64,000 nucleotides of DNA from Hufsiella arboris (GTDB lineage: Bacteria > Bacteroidota > Bacteroidia > Sphingobacteriales > Sphingobacteriaceae), in NCBI RefSeq assembly GCF_009834875.1, contig NZ_WVHT01000006.1:186001-250000 (forward strand), in the 5' to 3' direction. The notes beneath the pieces are model-generated. The model was not told the DNA's origin. It did no database searches and saw only the letters and a list, made by a program, of their open reading frames with translations. Shown here in pieces: positions 13,549-23,516 of this stretch (its first letter is position 1; each line of letters begins with the position of its first letter). A program made the translations under genes and the position numbers.

Positions 13549-14928
13549 TTATTTAGCTACAAAAAATGATGGTACATTGTATTGCTTGCTTACATCAGCC
13601 TGGAGAATTACACCGGCAACTTTCGGCTTGCCAACAATGTACTTATCAACGTATTTTTTAATATCCTCACGCGTTACTTTCTGGTAGTTCTCGTCCAAAT
13701 CAGTTGCATAATTTAACGAAGTGCTGCACCACTGGTAACTTAACTGGCTGGCTAACGAAGACGGCTTTTCCTTACTGCGCAGACTATTTCTAAGCAAAAT
13801 GGCCTTTGCATCTTTCAGCTGCTCATCTGTATAATAATCATCCTTATCCCACATAGCTATATGCTGCATCAATATATCATTGCATTCCTTGATTTTATCT
13901 GCGCCTGTAGGAACAATAAAGACTTCGATGGGGCCAGTATACCGGCACGTTGAGTAGCTGAAATCGACAGAAGAAGCCAGGCCTTTATCAACAAGGGCCT
14001 GATGCAGCTTAGACGAATTCAGTCCGATTATAGTTGAAAACACATCAGCGGCAATTGTAGCAGCAGAATCAGTAAGATATGCCGGTCCCTGCCAGTCGTA
14101 AGACATGTACGGCGTTTTGGCGATAGACGATTCTTTTACGAAAAACTCGTCCTTTGCTAAAGGTTTGAATTCCGGAATGGGATATTTAACATGCGGATCA
14201 AAGCCGCTGGATGCCCAGTCGCCGTATATGCTGCTTGCCAAAGCGAACGCTTCTTCGTGTTTAACATCGCCGCAGATTGTCAGGAGGCTATTATTTGGGA
14301 AATAATATTTATCCTTGATCACCATCATTTTTTGAGGTGTCGCCGTATTAATCACTTCATGGTCGCCAATCGGATTTTTTCTGGTAAAGTTATCTCCCCA
14401 AAGACGTTTTCCTGTTTCATAATAAAGCTGAAAACCAGGATCACTCTCAGCGCGCTGGAACTCGCCGTCGACTACCGGGCGTTCCTTTTTCATGTCTTCT
14501 TCACGGTAGATAGGGAACCGGATGGCCGAATTCATGAACTTAAGACCAGCTTTCAAGCTGTCCTTATCAAAAGTGAAAAAGTAGTTAACTCTTTCGACAT
14601 TGGTCGTTCCATTCCAGATTGCGCCAAGCTCCTGCGTACGTTTCAGAAACTTCTCCTGATCCGGATAATCCTTATTCGCTTTAAAGAACATATGCTCAAA
14701 TAAGTGAGAAAGGCCGCTGTACTCGGGTCCTTCCGTGTAGGCACCGTTCTTAACTGCAATCTCAATAGTCGCCAACGGAACTTTACTATTCTCAATGACG
14801 ACGACTTCCAACCCGTTTGGAAGCTTTTTCCAAAAATAACCCTCAGGAAGCCGGGGTTGAGCCATTAAACAGGTTACGGATAACATTCCTGCACCTGCAA
14901 GTAAACATTTGATAAATTTTGAAGCCAT
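13549..14928 (-). CDS. M16-family zinc peptidase (catalytic subunit)
   Basis: A 459-residue exported protease counted from the ATG at 14928, which begins a good signal peptide (MASKFIKCLLAGAG, ending LMAQ); an ATG nine codons upstream is less likely. The inverted zinc motif is H75-L-F-E78-H79 in GLSHLFEHMFFK, and the distal Glu region is EEDMKKERPVVDGEFQRAE. It heads the M16 pair, and the downstream partner lacks the motif. It probably degrades peptides or processes proteins in the periplasm. Confidence 0.9.
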   Translation of the reverse strand: MASKFIKCLLAGAGMLSVTCLMAQPRLPEGYFWKKLPNGLEVVVIENSKVPLATIEIAVKNGAYTEGPEYSGLSHLFEHMFFKANKDYPDQEKFLKRTQELGAIWNGTTNVERVNYFFTFDKDSLKAGLKFMNSAIRFPIYREEDMKKERPVVDGEFQRAESDPGFQLYYETGKRLWGDNFTRKNPIGDHEVINTATPQKMMVIKDKYYFPNNSLLTICGDVKHEEAFALASSIYGDWASSGFDPHVKYPIPEFKPLAKDEFFVKESSIAKTPYMSYDWQGPAYLTDSAATIAADVFSTIIGLNSSKLHQALVDKGLASSVDFSYSTCRYTGPIEVFIVPTGADKIKECNDILMQHIAMWDKDDYYTDEQLKDAKAILLRNSLRSKEKPSSLASQLSYQWCSTSLNYATDLDENYQKVTREDIKKYVDKYIVGKPKVAGVILQADVSKQYNVPSFFVAK

Positions 14929-15039
14929 ACGTGAAAAATCTTTACTAAATATCAAGTAAAAACTTCAAAATCTATCACATACAAGACTAATTTTTAAAAA
15001 TAATTTTACTTAAAATAAAAACAGAATCAGCTTAACTGC

Positions 15040-15780
15040 TTATTTTTTACCGCCAACGTTTACAATCAATCCAATGGTAAAAATAGAGTTGCCGGCCGTA
15101 AGATATTTCCTGTTCTTTAAGCCGAAATTACTGCTGGTGGTGTATTGTAACTGCACATTTTTACTAAGTGCCGTTCGGGTGAAGAAAACAGGCTCAATGA
15201 AGATATTATCCTCGGTTGGCTGATAGACATCATTCAGCTTGAAGTCTTTCATATTGATATAACTGAGCCGGAAAACCGTACCGTAATTCAGCTCAATATT
15301 TTTATTAAACAACTTTATTCCGTCCTTTTTCTTCGCCGAATAATTAACCTGGGCAAAGTATTTATTCAGCGTAAACTCTTGCCGTTCAGTTGTGGTATAA
15401 ATATGATCACCGGTTTCTTCCCGGTAATTACGTTCGCTATTTCCTTTGCCTAAACCCGCGTAGATTTCAAAAATGCGTTCTTTATCGTCTCCAAAGTTAT
15501 TGAAATAACCAGCGCCGGCCTCTATCAGATTGTGCCTGAAATCCTCGTCACTGTGTTTATTATTCATTATCGATCCGTTAAGCAAAACAGCAAAATGATC
15601 TGACGCGGCATAAGCGGAATTTAAACTTACATTTCCTTTTAGCGAAATATGTGCAGCTGCGCTCAGCTCGCCTTTCGAATCGAGCATTGGCGTGTTTGGA
15701 ACGTTCGGCATGTAAATAGATGAGCAACTGCAAAAAAATACGGATAAACTAAGAGCGATCAGCCCGGCGGCTTTGGTCAT
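15040..15780 (-). CDS. Predicted outer-membrane beta-barrel lipoprotein
   Basis: A 246-residue protein of no family I can name. The N-terminus (LIALSLSVFFCSCSS) is a lipoprotein-like signal with two candidate Cys residues, followed by IYMPNVPNTPML. The rest alternates in short beta strands rich in Asn, Tyr and Gly (HISLKGNVSLNSAYA, DHFAVLLNGSIM, LIEAGAGYF, RIFEIYAGLGKG) and ends in a strand typical of outer-membrane barrels (IFTIGLIVNVGGKK). It lies 85 bases downstream of the MRJP-like gene and on the same strand. Confidence 0.65.
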   Translation of the reverse strand: MTKAAGLIALSLSVFFCSCSSIYMPNVPNTPMLDSKGELSAAAHISLKGNVSLNSAYAASDHFAVLLNGSIMNNKHSDEDFRHNLIEAGAGYFNNFGDDKERIFEIYAGLGKGNSERNYREETGDHIYTTTERQEFTLNKYFAQVNYSAKKKDGIKLFNKNIELNYGTVFRLSYINMKDFKLNDVYQPTEDNIFIEPVFFTRTALSKNVQLQYTTSSNFGLKNRKYLTAGNSIFTIGLIVNVGGKK

Positions 15781-15867
15781 AAAAATTACAAAGAGTTAAA
15801 ATATTCAACGGTGTAACAGGCTAAACGACGCTTTGCTTAGATTATTTTTAAACAAATTAACAATCTG

Positions 15868-16935
15868 TTACTCGGGAAGCTTTACTTTGAAAAGCCGGAA
15901 TGGGTACTCTACCCTATCCTCACCGTTATTGTAAGCCGGCGTCCGGTTAATTTGTGAGCAGGTTACATAGAGGTAATTATCCGGGCCGATGGCAAATGAG
16001 TCGGGCCAGGTAAGGCGTTTATCTTCTATCAGAACTTTTAGCGTTCCATTCCTTGTAACATAGCGTATCGCATTGTCGGGAGAATCGCTTAAGTAAATGT
16101 TTCCTTTTTCGTCTGCAATCATTCCGTGCGAAACACCAACATCATCAATATGTTCAACACGTTGTGTAAGCTGTGAACCACTCAGCGTTGAGTCTGCCAG
16201 GTAAGAAGCTGAAATCCTGTAAAGCTTTGTCTGGTTTATCGGCCGAAAAAAAAGATAATCATTGTAAAAAGCGAGACCGTTCACATTCGAGCTGAATGCC
16301 TTTCCTTCCTGGTTGATCACATCTTTTCCATCGATGTTCAGCACAAAAGTTGTATCCGCCTTCGTTGACGGTTCATTTTTTAATACCAACCGGCTTTTAC
16401 CCGTTTTCAAATTTAATACAACAATGCAAGCTTGTTTAGGATCAGAAAGATAAGCCAGCTGCCGTTCATTATCTATTCGTACATCATTCAGAGCCGTTTG
16501 TTCCCGGCGGAGATCCTCAAACCGGTAAATACGTTCAACCCTGTTACTATCAATATCTATTTTAAGCAGCTTGACACCCTCGGGTATCGTTGGTCCACCG
16601 CTGGGATTAGCCGGATCAAGCACCCATAATTTATTTTCCTTATCGGTCCATAAAGCCTGAACATTGGTAAAATGTTCTGCTGTATTTAATGTATCGTATT
16701 TATTCCACACCGTATCCGGATAGGGAACACGCTTTCCATCCTTAATTTCTGCAAGTCCAAATTCGTATTGCTCACGTTTTGGAAATGTAACGAATATCCG
16801 GCCGGCCTTACTAACAGCAAGTCCGATGGGCTGGAACTTTCCGAATTGTGCTACTTCAACAAGGGCTGGCATTTGAGCTTTTAACTGTATGGCGGATAAT
16901 AAGGTTATGCATACAAAAAGAGGATTTTTTTTCAT
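15868..16935 (-). CDS. Major royal jelly protein / Yellow-family secreted protein
   Basis: A 355-residue secreted beta-propeller from the ATG at 16935, where MKKNPLFVCITLLSAIQLKAQ is a signal peptide; ATGs 2 and 9 codons upstream are alternatives. Family hallmarks are the opening FQPIGLAVSKAGRIFVTFPK, WVLDPANP, LNDVRIDNERQLAYLSD, VNGLAFYNDYLFFRP and SHGMIADEKGNIYLSDSPDNAI. These match the MRJP/Yellow domain, known first from insects but present in many bacteria, where its role is unclear. Confidence 0.85.
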   Translation of the reverse strand: MKKNPLFVCITLLSAIQLKAQMPALVEVAQFGKFQPIGLAVSKAGRIFVTFPKREQYEFGLAEIKDGKRVPYPDTVWNKYDTLNTAEHFTNVQALWTDKENKLWVLDPANPSGGPTIPEGVKLLKIDIDSNRVERIYRFEDLRREQTALNDVRIDNERQLAYLSDPKQACIVVLNLKTGKSRLVLKNEPSTKADTTFVLNIDGKDVINQEGKAFSSNVNGLAFYNDYLFFRPINQTKLYRISASYLADSTLSGSQLTQRVEHIDDVGVSHGMIADEKGNIYLSDSPDNAIRYVTRNGTLKVLIEDKRLTWPDSFAIGPDNYLYVTCSQINRTPAYNNGEDRVEYPFRLFKVKLPE

Positions 16936-17048
16936 GCGCATGCTGGTTTGAACATGGAACACAGAAAAAGCTGCTTGGTTTAGTATTTATCACATTTTCA
17001 AGCGGCTCGCTCACCGAAACAGCGGTTGATAAAAAATTATTTTTTTTC

Positions 17049-17078
17049 TTGCATAACTAGATTTGTTATGTACATTTG
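17049..17078 (+). promoter_or_regulatory. Promoter of the aromatic amino acid operon
   Basis: A complete Bacteroidota-type promoter: TTG at 17049-17051 (-33), a 19-base spacer, then TACATTTG at 17071-17078 (TAnnTTTG, -7). Transcription should start near 17084, about a dozen bases before the leader peptide ATG at 17097. It is the best-matching promoter in the window. Confidence 0.75.
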
Positions 17079-17096
17079 GCGCAAGCAATACAAATA

Positions 17097-17159
17097 ATGA
17101 TTACAACTAACGCATATTTTTACGGTTACTTTTACTTCTGGAGTAAGAGCCGGGACTGA
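17097..17159 (+). CDS. Aromatic-rich leader peptide of the pheA operon
   Basis: A 20-codon frame from ATG 17097 to TGA 17157-17159. Residues 7-15 read YFYGYFYFW: four Tyr, three Phe and one Trp, with a single Gly between them. The end of the frame (codons 18-20 and the stop) overlaps the first RNA segment of the downstream attenuator. This is the arrangement of enterobacterial phe and trp leader peptides, where ribosome stalling on scarce aminoacyl-tRNA decides whether the terminator forms. Its biological role is inferred from layout; no function as a protein is expected. Confidence 0.85.
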   Translation: MITTNAYFYGYFYFWSKSRD

Positions 17160-17220
17160 ATGCGTTTAACTTAACGATATAAAAACGAAAAGTCCCGGTC
17201 AAAAGCCGGGACTTTTTTTT
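17149..17220 (+). promoter_or_regulatory. Transcription attenuator: antiterminator and terminator segments
   Basis: Three segments compete. Segment 1 (17149-17157, GCCGGGACT) and segment 3 (17205-17213) are identical 9-mers, and segment 2 (17191-17199, AGTCCCGGT) can pair with either. Pairing 2 with 3 gives the intrinsic terminator (stem 17188-17198/17206-17216, seven-base loop, eight T to 17220). Pairing 1 with 2 prevents it. Segment 1 overlaps the last codons and stop of the leader peptide, so a ribosome that finishes the peptide hides segment 1 and permits termination. A ribosome stalled on the Tyr/Phe codons leaves it free. Confidence 0.85.
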
Positions 17221-17230
17221 GTGCTTTATT

Positions 17231-18058
17231 ATGAGTAGAAAAATAGCAATACAAGGCATCAAGGCATCATTCCACGAAGAAGCTGCTTTCAAGTTTTTTG
17301 GTGAGGATATCGATACCATCGAATGCAACTCCTTTCGTGCCACTTGCGAAGCTTTAAAAAACAAAGAAGCGGACTATGTGGTGATGGCTATCGAGAACTC
17401 TATTGCCGGCAGCATCCTACCAAACTATACGCTATTACAAGATTACCATTTTAGCATTATCGGCGAAGTTTACCTCCCTATACAATTACATTTAATGGCC
17501 TTGCCGGGAGTGAAATTTGAAGATATTAAGTTCGTTGAATCACATCCTATTGCTATCCGTCAGTGTATCGACTTCTTTTATGAATATCCGCACATAAAAG
17601 TTGTTGAAAGTACAGATACCGCAGCATGTGCAAAGAAAATCCGTGACAACCAACTAACTGACACGGTTGCCATCGCCAATCAACTTGCGGCAAAACTATA
17701 TGGCCTGGAAATCATTGAACGCCGGATAGAATCCAACAAGAAAAACTATACACGTTTCCTGATCCTTACCTATCCCGGAAAATCAATCGACGGCCTGGCG
17801 AATAAAGCATCCTTAAGTTTCCAGGTTGGTAATGAAGTTGGCTCACTGGCAAAAATCCTGAATATATTCGCCGATAAAAATATCAACCTCAGCAAGATTC
17901 AATCCATGCCTGTTTTAGGCAAAAGAAATGAGTACAACTTTTATGTCGATATCGAATGGAATAACTCGCCCGATTACGATTCAGCGATCAGGCAGGTTTT
18001 AAAATATGCCGTAAACTTCACCATCATGGGTGAATATCAAAAGAACGAAGAAGTTTAA
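17231..18058 (+). CDS. pheA: Prephenate dehydratase
   Basis: Converts prephenate to phenylpyruvate, the committed step to phenylalanine, in the cytoplasm. From the ATG at 17231 it has 275 residues; an in-frame TTG at 17219 lies inside the terminator T-tract and is unlikely. The PDT domain (IAIQGIKASFHEEAAFKFF, VVMAIENSIAGSI) carries the catalytic TRF motif in KKNYTRFLIL. The C-terminal ACT domain (SLSFQVGNEVGSLAKIL, INLSKIQSMPV) is the phenylalanine-sensing regulatory module, with the ESRP motif altered to IQSMP. It is the first gene after the attenuator and has no fused chorismate mutase; that activity is on the next gene. Confidence 0.95.
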   Translation: MSRKIAIQGIKASFHEEAAFKFFGEDIDTIECNSFRATCEALKNKEADYVVMAIENSIAGSILPNYTLLQDYHFSIIGEVYLPIQLHLMALPGVKFEDIKFVESHPIAIRQCIDFFYEYPHIKVVESTDTAACAKKIRDNQLTDTVAIANQLAAKLYGLEIIERRIESNKKNYTRFLILTYPGKSIDGLANKASLSFQVGNEVGSLAKILNIFADKNINLSKIQSMPVLGKRNEYNFYVDIEWNNSPDYDSAIRQVLKYAVNFTIMGEYQKNEEV

Positions 18059-18142
18059 AAGTAAAAAAATACACTAGTCACCGAATATTATTTTATAAAA
18101 TACTTAATCTATAGAATTATTAAAAGCTTTAAATCAACAAAC

Positions 18143-19255
18143 ATGAAATTAAATCTTAACATCGAGCCATTATCAAACTGGCTGCAGCCAACAAATGAAA
18201 AAAAGCCGCTGGTAATTGCCGGGCCTTGCAGCGCCGAAACTGAAGAACAATTACTTGCTACAGCACATTTGCTTGCGAAAACCGGTAAAGTATCCGCTTT
18301 ACGTGCCGGCATCTGGAAACCACGCACCCGTCCGGGAGAATTCGAAGGAATCGGAAGCATTGGTTTACAGTGGTTAAAACGCGCCAAAGAAGAAACAGGG
18401 TTAAAAACCGCTACCGAAGTTGCGACTGCCAAACACGTAGAAGAAGCTTTAGCCGCCGGAGTTGATGTACTTTGGGTTGGTGCCCGATCAACGGCCAATC
18501 CATTTACCGTTCAGGAAATTGCTGATGCTCTAAAAGGCGCTGACGTTCCGGTAATCGTTAAAAACCCGGTTAACCCGGACGTTTCATTATGGGTTGGAGC
18601 GCTTGAACGTATCAACAACGCGGGAATTACCAAGCTTGCTGCTATTCACCGCGGATTCAGTTCATTCGAGAAAACAGCTTTCCGGAACGAGCCTATGTGG
18701 GAACTTGCCATCCAACTGAAAACACTTTGCCCTGAATTGCCGATGATCAATGATCCGAGCCATATCTGCGGAAATCGCGAACTTATCTCGTACGTTTCGC
18801 AAAAAGCGCTTGATCTGGATATGCAAGGATTAATTATCGAATCACATATAGATCCTTCTGTTGCATGGACTGATGCAAAACAGCAAGTTACTCCGGCGGC
18901 GTTATCTGACCTGATTGACAACCTTACCCTGCGCCACCATGATCTGCAAACCCCTGAACTGGTTGACAAATTGACTGAGCTTCGCAAGCAAATCGACAAA
19001 CTTGATGATCTGATCTTTCAAAAAATCTCTGATCGTATGAAAGTTGCCGAAAAAATTGGCGAGCACAAACGTGATAATGACGTAACGATCCTGCAGGTTA
19101 ACCGTTGGGAAGAGATTCTTAAAAACCGCACAGCTTACGCCCGCGCTTTGAAACTTGACGACACATTCACAGAAAAACTTCTGGAGTTACTGCACAACGA
19201 ATCTATCCGTCGTCAAACCGAAGTTATGAACACAAAAACAGCGACAGAAGCCTAA
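18143..19255 (+). CDS. Bifunctional DAHP synthase / chorismate mutase (type II)
   Basis: A 370-residue fusion. The N-terminal domain (about residues 20-265) is a type I DAHP synthase of the AroG/KDOP group: VIAGPCSAETEEQ, RAGIWKPRTRPGEFEG, KTATEV, VGARSTANPF, KNPVNPD, INDPSHICG. It condenses PEP and erythrose-4-phosphate to open the shikimate pathway. The C-terminal ~90 residues are an AroQ-type chorismate mutase (LRKQIDKLDDLIFQKISDRMKVAEKIGEHKR split over one helix, with conserved Arg, Lys and Asp). The fusion of the first pathway step with the branch-point step is typical of Bacteroidota. It overlaps aroA by one base (TAATG). Confidence 0.94.
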   Translation: MKLNLNIEPLSNWLQPTNEKKPLVIAGPCSAETEEQLLATAHLLAKTGKVSALRAGIWKPRTRPGEFEGIGSIGLQWLKRAKEETGLKTATEVATAKHVEEALAAGVDVLWVGARSTANPFTVQEIADALKGADVPVIVKNPVNPDVSLWVGALERINNAGITKLAAIHRGFSSFEKTAFRNEPMWELAIQLKTLCPELPMINDPSHICGNRELISYVSQKALDLDMQGLIIESHIDPSVAWTDAKQQVTPAALSDLIDNLTLRHHDLQTPELVDKLTELRKQIDKLDDLIFQKISDRMKVAEKIGEHKRDNDVTILQVNRWEEILKNRTAYARALKLDDTFTEKLLELLHNESIRRQTEVMNTKTATEA

Positions 19256-20529
19256 TGAATTCTCAAGCAATCGCTTTAAGTAACCTGAATAACAGCTTTC
19301 ACGGAACGATTCAATTAACCGGATCAAAAAGTGAAAGCAACAGGGCTTTGATTTTGCAGGCATTGAGTGACGGATTGATTGAAGTAAAAAATCTTTCATC
19401 CGCAGCCGACACAGTGACTCTAAACAATCTTTTAAAAGAATTGTCCGGGGTTAACAGTGCCGGCGAGAGTACCGAAATCAGCGTCGGCCCTGCTGGCACT
19501 GCAATGCGGTTTCTCACTGCATATGCCGCAGTTAAAGGAACGAAGGTTACCATCACGGGAAGTGAGCGGATGAAACAGCGCCCAATTGGAATTTTGGTTA
19601 ATTCGTTGCTTGACCTGGGCGCCAAGATCTCATACAGTGAAACCGCCGGTTTTCCTCCCGTCAAGATTACGGGGAATTTCAATCAGAAAACGGCTAAGGT
19701 AAAAGTTAAAGGCTCCATCAGCTCACAATACATTACAGCTTTGCTTCTTGTGGCGCCAACGCTGTCGAAGGGCATTACGATCGAAATCGAAGGAGACCTG
19801 ACATCAAAACCTTATGTAGAAATGACACTGGCGATGATGGGCCAATGCGGAATCAATCATACGTGGCACGACAACCAGGTAAAAATTGGTGCGCAAACTT
19901 TTAAGCCCTCAACTATTACGGTTGAACCTGACTGGAGCGCCGCATCATACTGGTACTCAGTTGCCGCGCTTTGTAACGACGCGACTATCAAACTGCCTTT
20001 TCTGAAAAAAGATAGCTTGCAGGGAGATAACCGTATTGCAGAAATCATGTCGCATCTTGGCGTGGAAACGACTTATGAGGAAGATGGCATTACGATCGTC
20101 AATACAGGAAAAAAACTTGATCAAACAGATTTTGATTTCAAGGAATGCCCGGATCTGGCGCAAACGGTTATTGCATGCTGCGCAGCTTTAGGGTATAATG
20201 CGACATTTACCGGCCTGGAGACGCTTAAGATCAAAGAGACCGATCGTGTAGCAGCCTTACAAAATGAGCTAGCAAAATTGAATGTAACGCTTACCGAAAA
20301 TAACGGTTCATATTTTTTGGACAGCGAAGGCAAGCAAATTCCCGACGAAGTTAGCTTCAGCACTTATGAAGATCACCGGATGGCTATGGCGTTTGCTCCG
20401 CTGGCATTAGTAATTAATAAAGTTATTATTGAGGATCCAGAGGTGGTTGAAAAATCATATCCTCATTTTTGGGAAGACATGAAAAAAGCCGGGTTTGAAA
20501 TAAAAACTTCAGAATTAGCCAAAAGCTAG
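19255..20529 (+). CDS. aroA: 5-enolpyruvylshikimate-3-phosphate synthase
   Basis: Transfers enolpyruvyl from PEP to shikimate-3-phosphate. The 424-residue sequence shows the family landmarks: [17 protein letters not shown] (substrate Lys/Ser loop), GPAGTAMRF, a [11 protein letters not shown] phosphate-binding region, [27 protein letters not shown] and [14 protein letters not shown] near the C-terminus. The glycine-rich loop reads GPAGTAMRF rather than the NAGTAMRP of enterobacterial enzymes. Its start overlaps the stop of the DAHP synthase gene, which indicates coupled translation in the operon. Confidence 0.95.
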
Positions 20530-20587
20530 CCACAAAATATGGCACTTAAAAAATCTTATTACTGATATCTCATTACTCAATACTACA

Positions 20588-21694
20588 ATGGCAGGTAATT
20601 CATTCGGACAGCTTTTTCGCATCACTACATTTGGCGAATCGCACGGCGCAGCAATCGGTGTAGTAATAGACGGCTGTCCGCCAAATATTGAAATTGACCA
20701 GGATTTTATTCAGGGAGAACTGGACAAACGAAAACCGGGACAGTCGCGGATTACTACCCAAAGAAAAGAAAGCGATGAATTCCAGATCCTGTCGGGGATT
20801 TTCGAAAATAAAACGACAGGTACTCCTCTCGCAATCATTATTCCCAATTCAGACCAGCGTTCAAAAGATTACGATCATAACAAGGATATTTTCAGGCCGT
20901 CGCATGCCGATTTTACTTACGAGGCAAAGTACGGGATAAGAGATCACCGGGGAGGCGGCAGGTCGTCCGCCCGCGAAACTGCAGCACGCGTAGCAGCAGG
21001 TGCGATAGCAAAGTTATTTCTTCAAAAATCAGGGGTTGAGATATTTGCGCACGTTTCCGGCGTAGGAATAATTGAAGCGCCTGAACCATCCAGTGCCGAT
21101 TTAAAGCAACTTGAAACAATTCGCGAATCAAACCTTGTTCGCTGCGCCGATGAAAATAAGGCTGCAGAAATGGTTGAATATATCGACGGTATACGCAAAG
21201 CCGGAGATACTGTTGGCGGACGGATTTCATGTGTCATTAAAAATTGTCCGGCAGGTTTAGGCGAACCGGTTTTTGATAAGCTTCACGCAGAATTGGGCAA
21301 AGCTATGCTAAGTATCAACGCCGTGCACGGATTTGAGTATGGCTCCGGCTTTAAAGGCTCGGAGATGCGGGGCTCACAACATAATGACATTCCTGTCGCC
21401 ACAAATGATCCAACCAAAATGGAAACTGTAACTAATTTTTCAGGGGGCGTACAGGGAGGTATTTCAAACGGAATGGATATTACATTTAAAGTTGCATTTA
21501 AACCCGTTGCGACCATTATGCATAACCAGCCAACAATAGACAAAGAAGGCAATTCCGCTGAAATCAAGGGAAAAGGCAGACATGACCCTTGTGTAGTTCC
21601 AAGAGCAGTTGCCATAATTGAAGCAATGGCAGCCCTGGTAATTGCCGATCATCTATTAAGAAATCAATCTGTAAAACAAAATTTCTCCGTATAA
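20588..21694 (+). CDS. aroC: Chorismate synthase
   Basis: An FMN-dependent lyase that forms chorismate from EPSP. The 368-residue protein begins with the family signature [20 protein letters not shown] and contains RRPGQSR-like [33 protein letters not shown] and RGSQHNDI, and ends with [20 protein letters not shown]. All the usual flavin- and substrate-binding blocks are present. It is the last gene of the operon and is followed within 25 bases by a terminator. Confidence 0.96.
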
Positions 21695-21715
21695 ACAGCT
21701 ATGCAAGTTAGCTTG

Positions 21716-21741
21716 AAAACGCTCGAATGGGCGTTTTTTTT
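21716..21741 (+). terminator. Terminator of the aromatic operon
   Basis: A nine-pair stem with one G-U pair (AAAACGCTC 21716-21724 with GGGCGTTTT 21729-21737), loop GAAT, and a T-run to about 21741. It begins 21 bases after the aroC stop. Confidence 0.8.
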
Positions 21742-21929
21742 ATTTCCCTTTTTGTTTGTTCAGACCGTTTTTTTTCATTGGTTTTCATTGCGATTTTTTA
21801 TTTCCCTATAACCACCTCCAATGATTTAAGCAACCAATACGCCTCGATCTGTCACTTTATTTACCGCCGGTAATATCAAAATACTTATTAGTTTTAAGGG
21901 CCAAAAAATTTCGCGGGCGTCAATCATAA

Positions 21930-23516
21930 ATGAAGGTTTTTAATTTTTTTGTTCTGCTACTTTTAAGCATCAATTCATTTGCTAATACCGATAGCCTGCT
22001 TAATGAACTAAATACCGCCTTAGCAAATAAAAAAACATACGAGGGCAAGAAAATCAATCGTATTGAAAGCCTTAAAACTTCATTAAACGGCGCTCCTTCA
22101 GCTAAAAGCAGGTATGATATCTGCCTTTCCATTTACAATGAATATAAAACGTTCCAGTTTGATTCGGCATTTGTTTATAGCAAACAACTTGAACTGGTCG
22201 CTTCTAAACTCGATGATCCTTCAAGGCTTGAATATGTAAAACTCAAACAGGGTTTTATACTGCTGTCTTCAGGTATGTTTAAGGAAGCATTTGATATCCT
22301 CTACAAAATCGATAAGGCAAAATTAAGCCGGAATGAACAAATAGAATATTACAGTACGCTGGCCAGGAGCTATTACGATCTCGCGGATTTTGACAAGAAC
22401 ATCTATTACAACTCGGAATATAATAAAAAAGGACTCGCTTATTCTGATTCGGCCATTCATTTGAGCAAAACAGGGTCTTATGATTTTTATTCGCAAAGCG
22501 GGTTGAAAAATCTTCGCACCGGCAATCTCCAGAACGCGCTGGTGGACTACAAGAATTTAATGGCCTATAAAAACCAGGACCCTCACCAGTTTGCGATTAA
22601 TACAAGCTGTCTGAGTTTCATTTATTCGCATGCCGGCGAATCTGAAAAATCGCTTGATTATCTTATCATGGCCGCTATTTCAGACATCAAGTCGGCAACG
22701 AAGGAAACAGTTGCCATTTCGAACCTGGCTGATATTCTCTTTAAGAATGGCGATACAAAAAATTCGTACGTATATATCAAGCAAGCACTGGAAGATGCTG
22801 TCTTTTACGGCGCTCGTCACCGTGAAATTCAAATCAGCGCTATTCTGCCAATCATTGAGGGTGATAAACTAAATACCGTTGAGCGGCAAAAAACGCTGCT
22901 TCTCACCTATTCGGTTTTATTGACGATACTCGCAGTCATCATCGTGATATTCGTGATTATAACATTACGTCAGCTTAAAAAGATCAAGCTTGCAGATCAG
23001 ATTATTTCGCTGGCGAATGAAAACTTGCAGGAAAGCAATAAGCTGCTCACGGATGCGAATAAAATCAAAAACGAGTATGTTATATACTATTTCAAAATCA
23101 GCTCGGAATACATTGATAAGATCGAGCGTTTTAAAACTTCGGTCGAACATAAACTTGCCCTGCGAAACGTCGATGAAATAAAAAGCAGTGTTGGTAAGAT
23201 CAACATCCAAAAAGAACGCGAAGATCTCTTCCTGGGCTTCGATAAAGTTTTCCTAAAACTCTTTCCGAATTTCGTTAGCGATTTTAACGATCTGCTGAAA
23301 GCTGAAGAAAAATTTGTTCTGCCGGATGAGCACATGAATACTGAACTTCGGATTTACGCGCTCATACGGATCGGTATCACAGATAATGATCGTATTGCCA
23401 AGATCCTGAATTATTCCGTGAACACTATTTATGCTTATAAAACCCGGATTAAGAAAAAATCGAACTTTCCGGGTGATGAATTTGAGGATAAAATCATGCA
23501 GATTAACCCGGTTTAA
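21930..23516 (+). CDS. SusR-like membrane-bound transcriptional regulator (DUF6377-type)
   Basis: A 528-residue protein: a signal/anchor at the N-terminus (FNFFVLLLLSINSFA), a long helical TPR-like periplasmic region (about 20-320; repeats such as ARSYYDLADFDKN, LSFIYSHAGESEKSLDYL), one transmembrane span (about 325-347, LLLTYSVLLTILAVIIVIFV), then a coiled coil and a C-terminal helix-turn-helix (DNDRIAKILNYSVNTIYAYKTRIKKK). This is the architecture of SusR, the maltooligosaccharide sensor that activates the sus genes in Bacteroides thetaiotaomicron. It lies directly upstream of susC on the same strand. I infer that the periplasmic part senses maltodextrin and the cytoplasmic HTH activates the operon. 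Confidence 0.8.
   Translation: MKVFNFFVLLLLSINSFANTDSLLNELNTALANKKTYEGKKINRIESLKTSLNGAPSAKSRYDICLSIYNEYKTFQFDSAFVYSKQLELVASKLDDPSRLEYVKLKQGFILLSSGMFKEAFDILYKIDKAKLSRNEQIEYYSTLARSYYDLADFDKNIYYNSEYNKKGLAYSDSAIHLSKTGSYDFYSQSGLKNLRTGNLQNALVDYKNLMAYKNQDPHQFAINTSCLSFIYSHAGESEKSLDYLIMAAISDIKSATKETVAISNLADILFKNGDTKNSYVYIKQALEDAVFYGARHREIQISAILPIIEGDKLNTVERQKTLLLTYSVLLTILAVIIVIFVIITLRQLKKIKLADQIISLANENLQESNKLLTDANKIKNEYVIYYFKISSEYIDKIERFKTSVEHKLALRNVDEIKSSVGKINIQKEREDLFLGFDKVFLKLFPNFVSDFNDLLKAEEKFVLPDEHMNTELRIYALIRIGITDNDRIAKILNYSVNTIYAYKTRIKKKSNFPGDEFEDKIMQINPV

Follow-up and report, generated by a model that had tools for sequence, protein, structure and literature searches.

The pheA gene of Hufsiella arboris heads an operon for aromatic amino acid synthesis, and it is preceded by a short reading frame rich in Tyr and Phe codons and by a hairpin with a U-run. 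How does this leader region control the operon? Leader-peptide attenuation is a textbook mechanism exemplified by the enterobacterial trp and phe leaders, and it is best known from Proteobacteria and Actinobacteria. The original prediction assigned the present site to this mechanism. Analysis in silico of the 64,000-nucleotide stretch that contains the locus (the window, to which unlabelled positions refer) and of related genomes established the anatomy, conservation, pair statistics, and geometry of the site. These strongly suggest, with a probability of about 0.92, that a ribosome-mediated transcription attenuator governs the pheA operon.

Layout of the leader region and the operon

All features of the site are on the plus strand. 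The Bacteroidota-type promoter (17049-17078) consists of TTG at 17049-17051, a spacer of 19 nt, and TACATTTG at 17071-17078. The leader ORF (17097-17159), with its ATG at 17097 and its stop TGA at 17157-17159, has 20 codons and encodes MITTNAYFYGYFYFWSKSRD; residues 7-15 are YFYGYFYFW. The ORF has no Shine-Dalgarno sequence, and we therefore infer its translation. Messages of the Bacteroidia are mostly without such sites.

Segment 1 (GCCGGGACT, 17149-17157), the 5' arm of the antiterminator, overlaps the end and the stop codon of the peptide. Segment 2 (AGTCCCGGT, 17191-17199) is common to the antiterminator and the terminator. Segment 3 (17205-17213), the 3' arm of the terminator, is identical to segment 1, both being GCCGGGACT. 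The U-run of the intrinsic terminator, eight T at 17213-17220, is followed by 10 bases and then the ATG of pheA at 17231. When positions 16700-18500 were re-read, every one of these elements was found where it had been predicted, including the overlap of segment 1 with the stop codon. The three-segment layout stood as regards segments 1-3, but it was not complete: two further conserved stems, absent from the original prediction, were found. Stem P0 is formed by AACGCAT in codons 5-7 (17109-17115) and ATGCGTT just past the leader stop (17160-17166), and it encloses both segment 1 and stem P1. The latter is formed by CTTTTAC in the Tyr-Phe-Tyr codons (17129-17135) and GTAAGAG (17143-17149).

The folding z-score of the leader-region RNA was -4.6, and none of 200 shuffles was equally stable. 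The leader hairpin, with 13 pairs, is the strongest terminator-like site within 14900-22000. It does not serve as the terminator of an upstream gene, because the gene that flanks the site away from pheA (15868-16962) is read from the minus strand.

Four genes follow on the plus strand: pheA (17231-18058), encoding prephenate dehydratase with an ACT domain (PF00800, PF01842); a gene for DAHP synthase fused to chorismate mutase (18143-19255; PF00793, PF01817); aroA, encoding EPSP synthase (19255-20529; TIGR01356 above the cut-off); and aroC, encoding chorismate synthase (20588-21694; TIGR00033 above the cut-off). A terminator-like site at 21715-21738 closes the operon. Four relatives have the same gene order with matching ORF starts. 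Besides the fusion protein, the genome yielded a single PF00793 protein, a KDO8P synthase; the operon thus probably carries the type I DAHP synthase of the genome, type I being the class that the search covered. For this reason, sensing of Tyr and Phe together seems sensible for control of the shared pathway.

Two other loci of the genome should be mentioned. A 452-aa ORF unlinked to the operon (L213 619-1974, minus strand; G000:C23) matches prephenate dehydrogenase (PDH_N) only below the cut-off, and it is possibly a divergent TyrA. A biopterin-dependent aromatic amino acid hydroxylase adjoins an HPPD-like dioxygenase (L214 290-3183; G000:C12), and the two probably serve Phe/Tyr breakdown. 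A route to Tyr from Phe, in compensation for a missing tyrA, was considered and dropped, since the 452-aa ORF may be a TyrA and the hydroxylase looks catabolic.

Conservation and base pairing among relatives

pheA was located in 135 of 151 genomes of the Sphingobacteriaceae, and 125 distinct upstream regions were compared. An automatic scan detected the leader, the terminator, and segment 1 in 120 of them. Inspection added two loci, so that a Tyr/Phe-rich leader and a terminator are present in 122 of the 125. In one of the two (L147), the leader and the hairpin had been overlooked by the script. In the other (L086 5388-5516, Mucilaginibacter aurantiaciroseus), the leader lies 604 nt upstream of pheA, and the RNA model gives it 116.5 bits. 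Between this leader and pheA, an ORF of about 125 codons has been inserted, which would now be under the control of the attenuator. No leader was found in L128-L130, which carry the most distant pheA genes (43-45% identity). The original prediction had named lack of a conserved aromatic-rich ORF before pheA in relatives as the result that would count against it; such an ORF was found in nearly every member of the family.

As a control, ORFs of 200 aa or longer were collected from these loci and the window, and each of the 659 was checked for a short ORF ahead of it with 7 or more aromatic residues in 10 codons. All 77 ORFs that have one are at pheA loci, and a comparable ORF was found before none of the approximately 580 other genes in the same DNA. 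This excludes chance as the explanation. The promoter is also conserved: TAnnTTTG occurs in the 60 nt that precede the leader ATG in 82 of 120 relatives (3% in shuffles), and TTG precedes it by 16-22 nt in 78 relatives, with a spacer of 19 in 62.

The position of the terminator bears on how expression would be stopped. Since the U-run in the window ends only 10 nt before the ATG of pheA, the hairpin of segments 2 and 3 might instead hide the start region of pheA, so that control would be translational and transcription would not be ended. In Pedobacter, however, as much as about 100 nt can separate the terminator from pheA, and many loci have it at 30-100 nt with the T-run kept; this distance fits termination rather than occlusion of a ribosome-binding site. 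Furthermore, a T-run of 4-10 accompanies the hairpin wherever it is present, also in distant families. Translational attenuation is thus very improbable, and transcription termination is the preferred reading.

Base pairing was assessed in a MAFFT alignment of 73 leaders by comparison with shuffles and with slid versions. For P0, P1, and the terminator together, 92.8% of cells are paired, and all slid versions are much lower. These helices contain 14 double-change pairs, compared with 6.6 in shuffles, and none of 500 shuffles was as high. In the terminator helix, downstream of the leader ORF and ahead of the first gene, 98% of cells are paired, and both sides have changed in 8 of 11 pairs. The antiterminator is mutually exclusive with it and is conserved, with 94.8% of cells paired as compared with 18-57% when slid. 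Its double changes are few (3 pairs, a number reached by 101 of 500 shuffles), and the covariation of the antiterminator by itself is modest. Compensatory changes in segments 1-3, which the original prediction had called for, were nevertheless observed. In Daejeonella, segment 2 became CCCTGC in coordination with GCAGGG in segment 3 and GCGGGG in segment 1.

In P1, 98% of cells are paired. A double change from C-G to U-A is seen in 11 sequences, in which C/U of a Tyr codon and G/A of GUAAGA/AUAAGA vary jointly. Of the stems, P0 is the least certain: 81% of its cells are paired, its support consists of the conserved CAUAU:AUAUG and one GC/AU/GU pair, and, counted by pair, its double changes are no more numerous than in shuffles. 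On its 5' strand, 72 of 73 leaders have A in the third position of codon 6. On its 3' strand, ATG is nearly invariant despite being non-coding.

Predicted sensing of Tyr and Phe and the proposed switch

The aromatic block is 80% aromatic in frame, as compared with 18% in the other frames and 31% in shuffles, the in-frame value being inflated by definition of the block ends by aromatic residues. Codons 8 and 9 therefore give cleaner evidence. They are outside both stems and are aromatic in 63 and 71 of 73 leaders, respectively, with Trp, Phe, and Tyr codons replacing one another; codon 8 is TGG, TTT, or TAC. This interchange indicates selection on the class of the encoded residue. The short ORF before the operon is thus enriched in codons for products of the pathway: a leader contains on average 4.2 Tyr and 3.6 Phe, which make up 21% and 18% of leader residues. 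Trp is present in just 44 of 120 leaders, and in H. arboris itself a separate WWW leader precedes the trp operon (see below). The predicted sensing of Tyr and Phe is supported by these observations.

From this anatomy we infer the dynamics of the switch and its response to amino acids. Transcription would begin near 17084, and a ribosome would translate the 20-codon leader. When Tyr-tRNA or Phe-tRNA is short, the ribosome would stall on codons 7-15 and leave segment 1 outside its footprint. Segment 1 could then pair with segment 2, the terminator made of segments 2 and 3 and the U-run would not form, and pheA-aroG/CM-aroA-aroC would be transcribed. When both tRNAs are plentiful, the ribosome would reach the stop codon and cover segment 1. 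Segment 2 would then pair with segment 3, and transcription would end just before pheA.

The stall geometry was examined by folding RNA that ends after segment 2, with an assumed ribosome footprint of -15 to +12 around the A-site masked. In the window, the probability of the antiterminator was 0.90-0.98 with the A-site at codons 2-14, 0.66 at Trp15, and 0 from codon 16. With this assumed footprint, a stall at the sensor codons frees the antiterminator arm and run-on to the stop covers it, which fits the predicted attenuation. In 72 of 73 leaders, the antiterminator collapses 0, 1, or 2 codons past the last aromatic codon. This codon and segment 1 are separated by 10-14 nt in 71 of 73 leaders, whereas the stop codon may fall anywhere between about 26 nt beyond the start of segment 1 and 5 nt ahead of it. 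In other words, the distance from sensor to switch is kept constant, as stalling requires. Homology contributes to constant spacing within a family, and for this reason distant families matter; there, segment 1 is usually 7-16 nt from the last aromatic codon.

When the full-length RNA is folded to equilibrium, the terminator prevails whatever the state of the ribosome. The model therefore relies on co-transcriptional order, that is, on the assumption that the antiterminator would pair before segment 3 emerges. To our knowledge, this reliance is common to all such attenuators.

On ribosome-free RNA ending after segment 2, the antiterminator forms as well in 70 of 73 leaders, and P0 loses to it at equilibrium in these 70. 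P0 as a thermodynamic block of the antiterminator is therefore unsupported by the folding of truncated RNA, and a kinetic role alone was retained. P0 is formed before segment 2 emerges in 67 of 73 leaders. P0 and P1 would form on RNA free of ribosomes; they might pace the polymerase, keep segment 1 looped, or both, and so favor termination in the absence of a ribosome. A G-10 Y-1 G+1 pattern is located 12-13 nt past the base of P1 in 72 of 73 leaders (in the window at 17160-17163, the AUG after the leader stop). This pattern fits the pause consensus of RNA polymerase, and it may simply reflect P0. P1 was also considered as a classic pause hairpin. In hisL and trpL, the hairpin base is 11-12 nt from the pause position; the distance of 12-13 nt from the P1 base to position -1 is slightly longer.

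Other leaders and relation to known systems

The content of leader peptides follows the operon product. In the same genome, trpE is preceded by MNALHTNNWWWHKNNAAGFAC, containing WWW, and then by the terminator AACCCGGCGCAAAACGCCGGGTTTTTTT (L204/L207, G000:C45); judged from its sequence, the site appears to be a tryptophan attenuator. It was unmatched in Rfam. hisG is preceded by the His-rich MPLVFTHHVHFHHRHCGDR (L206 1225-1285, reverse complement; G000:C55), with a hairpin over the last codons. No intrinsic terminator with a U-run was evident there, and hisG may be controlled at translation or in some other way. The weak matches to the R1 motif that were inspected elsewhere in the genome, the trpE leader excepted, look like ordinary post-gene terminators and were rejected as further copies.

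Among 198 sampled genomes of the class, 52 matched the pheA query, and the following results apply to the matched genomes. An aromatic-rich short ORF lies upstream in 29 of 44 pheA loci of other Bacteroidia families; the sequences are unrelated, and the layout is that of the Sphingobacteriaceae leaders. Outside the Sphingobacteriaceae, pairing of segments 1 and 2 beats shuffles (p<=0.05) in 22 of 34 cases with leader and terminator.

These comparisons bear on whether the Tyr and Phe codons are incidental to a riboswitch or a protein-binding leader. Conservation and covariation of P0 and P1 might suggest such an RNA, but no T-box or riboswitch model of Rfam matched at the gathering score. Moreover, aromatic residues persist while nucleotides change (as at codon 8), leaders of other families are alike in aromatic content and not in sequence, and the specificity of the peptide matches the operon also before trpE and hisG. 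This explanation is hardly tenable. Equally little speaks for a functional small-protein gene with its own ordinary terminator, uncoupled from pheA: a short ORF is conserved together with a promoter and a terminator, but its length (16-25 codons) and C-terminus vary among relatives, its stop shifts across segment 1, only its aromatic richness and its distance to segment 1 are kept, and it occurs specifically with pheA.

The predicted attenuator resembles the enterobacterial pheA/pheL and trp leaders in its product-rich peptide, its competing antiterminator and terminator, its U-run before the first gene, and a hairpin built with leader codons, which may serve here for pausing or protection. 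It differs from them in its predicted sensing of Tyr and Phe together, in its Bacteroidota promoter, and in the extra enclosing stem P0, and there is no detectable sequence relationship. The Phe_leader model (RF01859) gave 26.3 bits against a gathering score of 55; this and other sub-threshold Rfam matches were taken as chance or analogy. Bacteroid-trp RNA (RF01692) is a predicted cis-regulatory RNA of Bacteroidetes (PMC2864571). It had no match at the gathering score in the window or in the trpE leader region L204.

A 2021 transcriptome of Flavobacterium psychrophilum, the only relevant paper found in the literature search, describes structured 5' elements before pheA and hisG that are conserved within the Flavobacteriaceae and not in Rfam, and it mentions strong clues for leader-peptide attenuation before amino-acid operons (PMC9723704). 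These elements belong to the same phylum and the same genes; the main text deals with Flavobacteriaceae only and is without details of the pheA peptide, pairs, or mechanism. The kind of system is therefore already known, and the family-level case was hinted at in that paper. What seems to be new is that the mechanism is spelled out, that further stems and the geometry are described, and that the system is traced through the Bacteroidia, although the overlap with the full paper may be larger.

In four loci from three other Bacteroidia families (L185, L195, L186, L191), the region 0-350 nt before pheA contains two complete Tyr/Phe-rich leader ORFs in series, and each has a hairpin and a T-run behind it. 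They are apparently tandem leader-peptide attenuators. A wider picture can be proposed tentatively: pheA leader-peptide attenuation might be widespread and perhaps ancestral in the Bacteroidia, with P0 of the Sphingobacteriaceae serving as a kinetic anti-antiterminator on RNA that carries no ribosome, and with some families stacking two complete attenuators. The tandem versions, if confirmed, would represent an unusual serial logic. The conserved spacing between the last aromatic codon and segment 1 provides an in silico ruler for the leading edge of the ribosome. As a class-wide case backed by covariation, the attenuator would show how aromatic amino-acid synthesis is controlled in the Bacteroidia, and it would imply close timing of transcription and translation in a group with atypical translation initiation.
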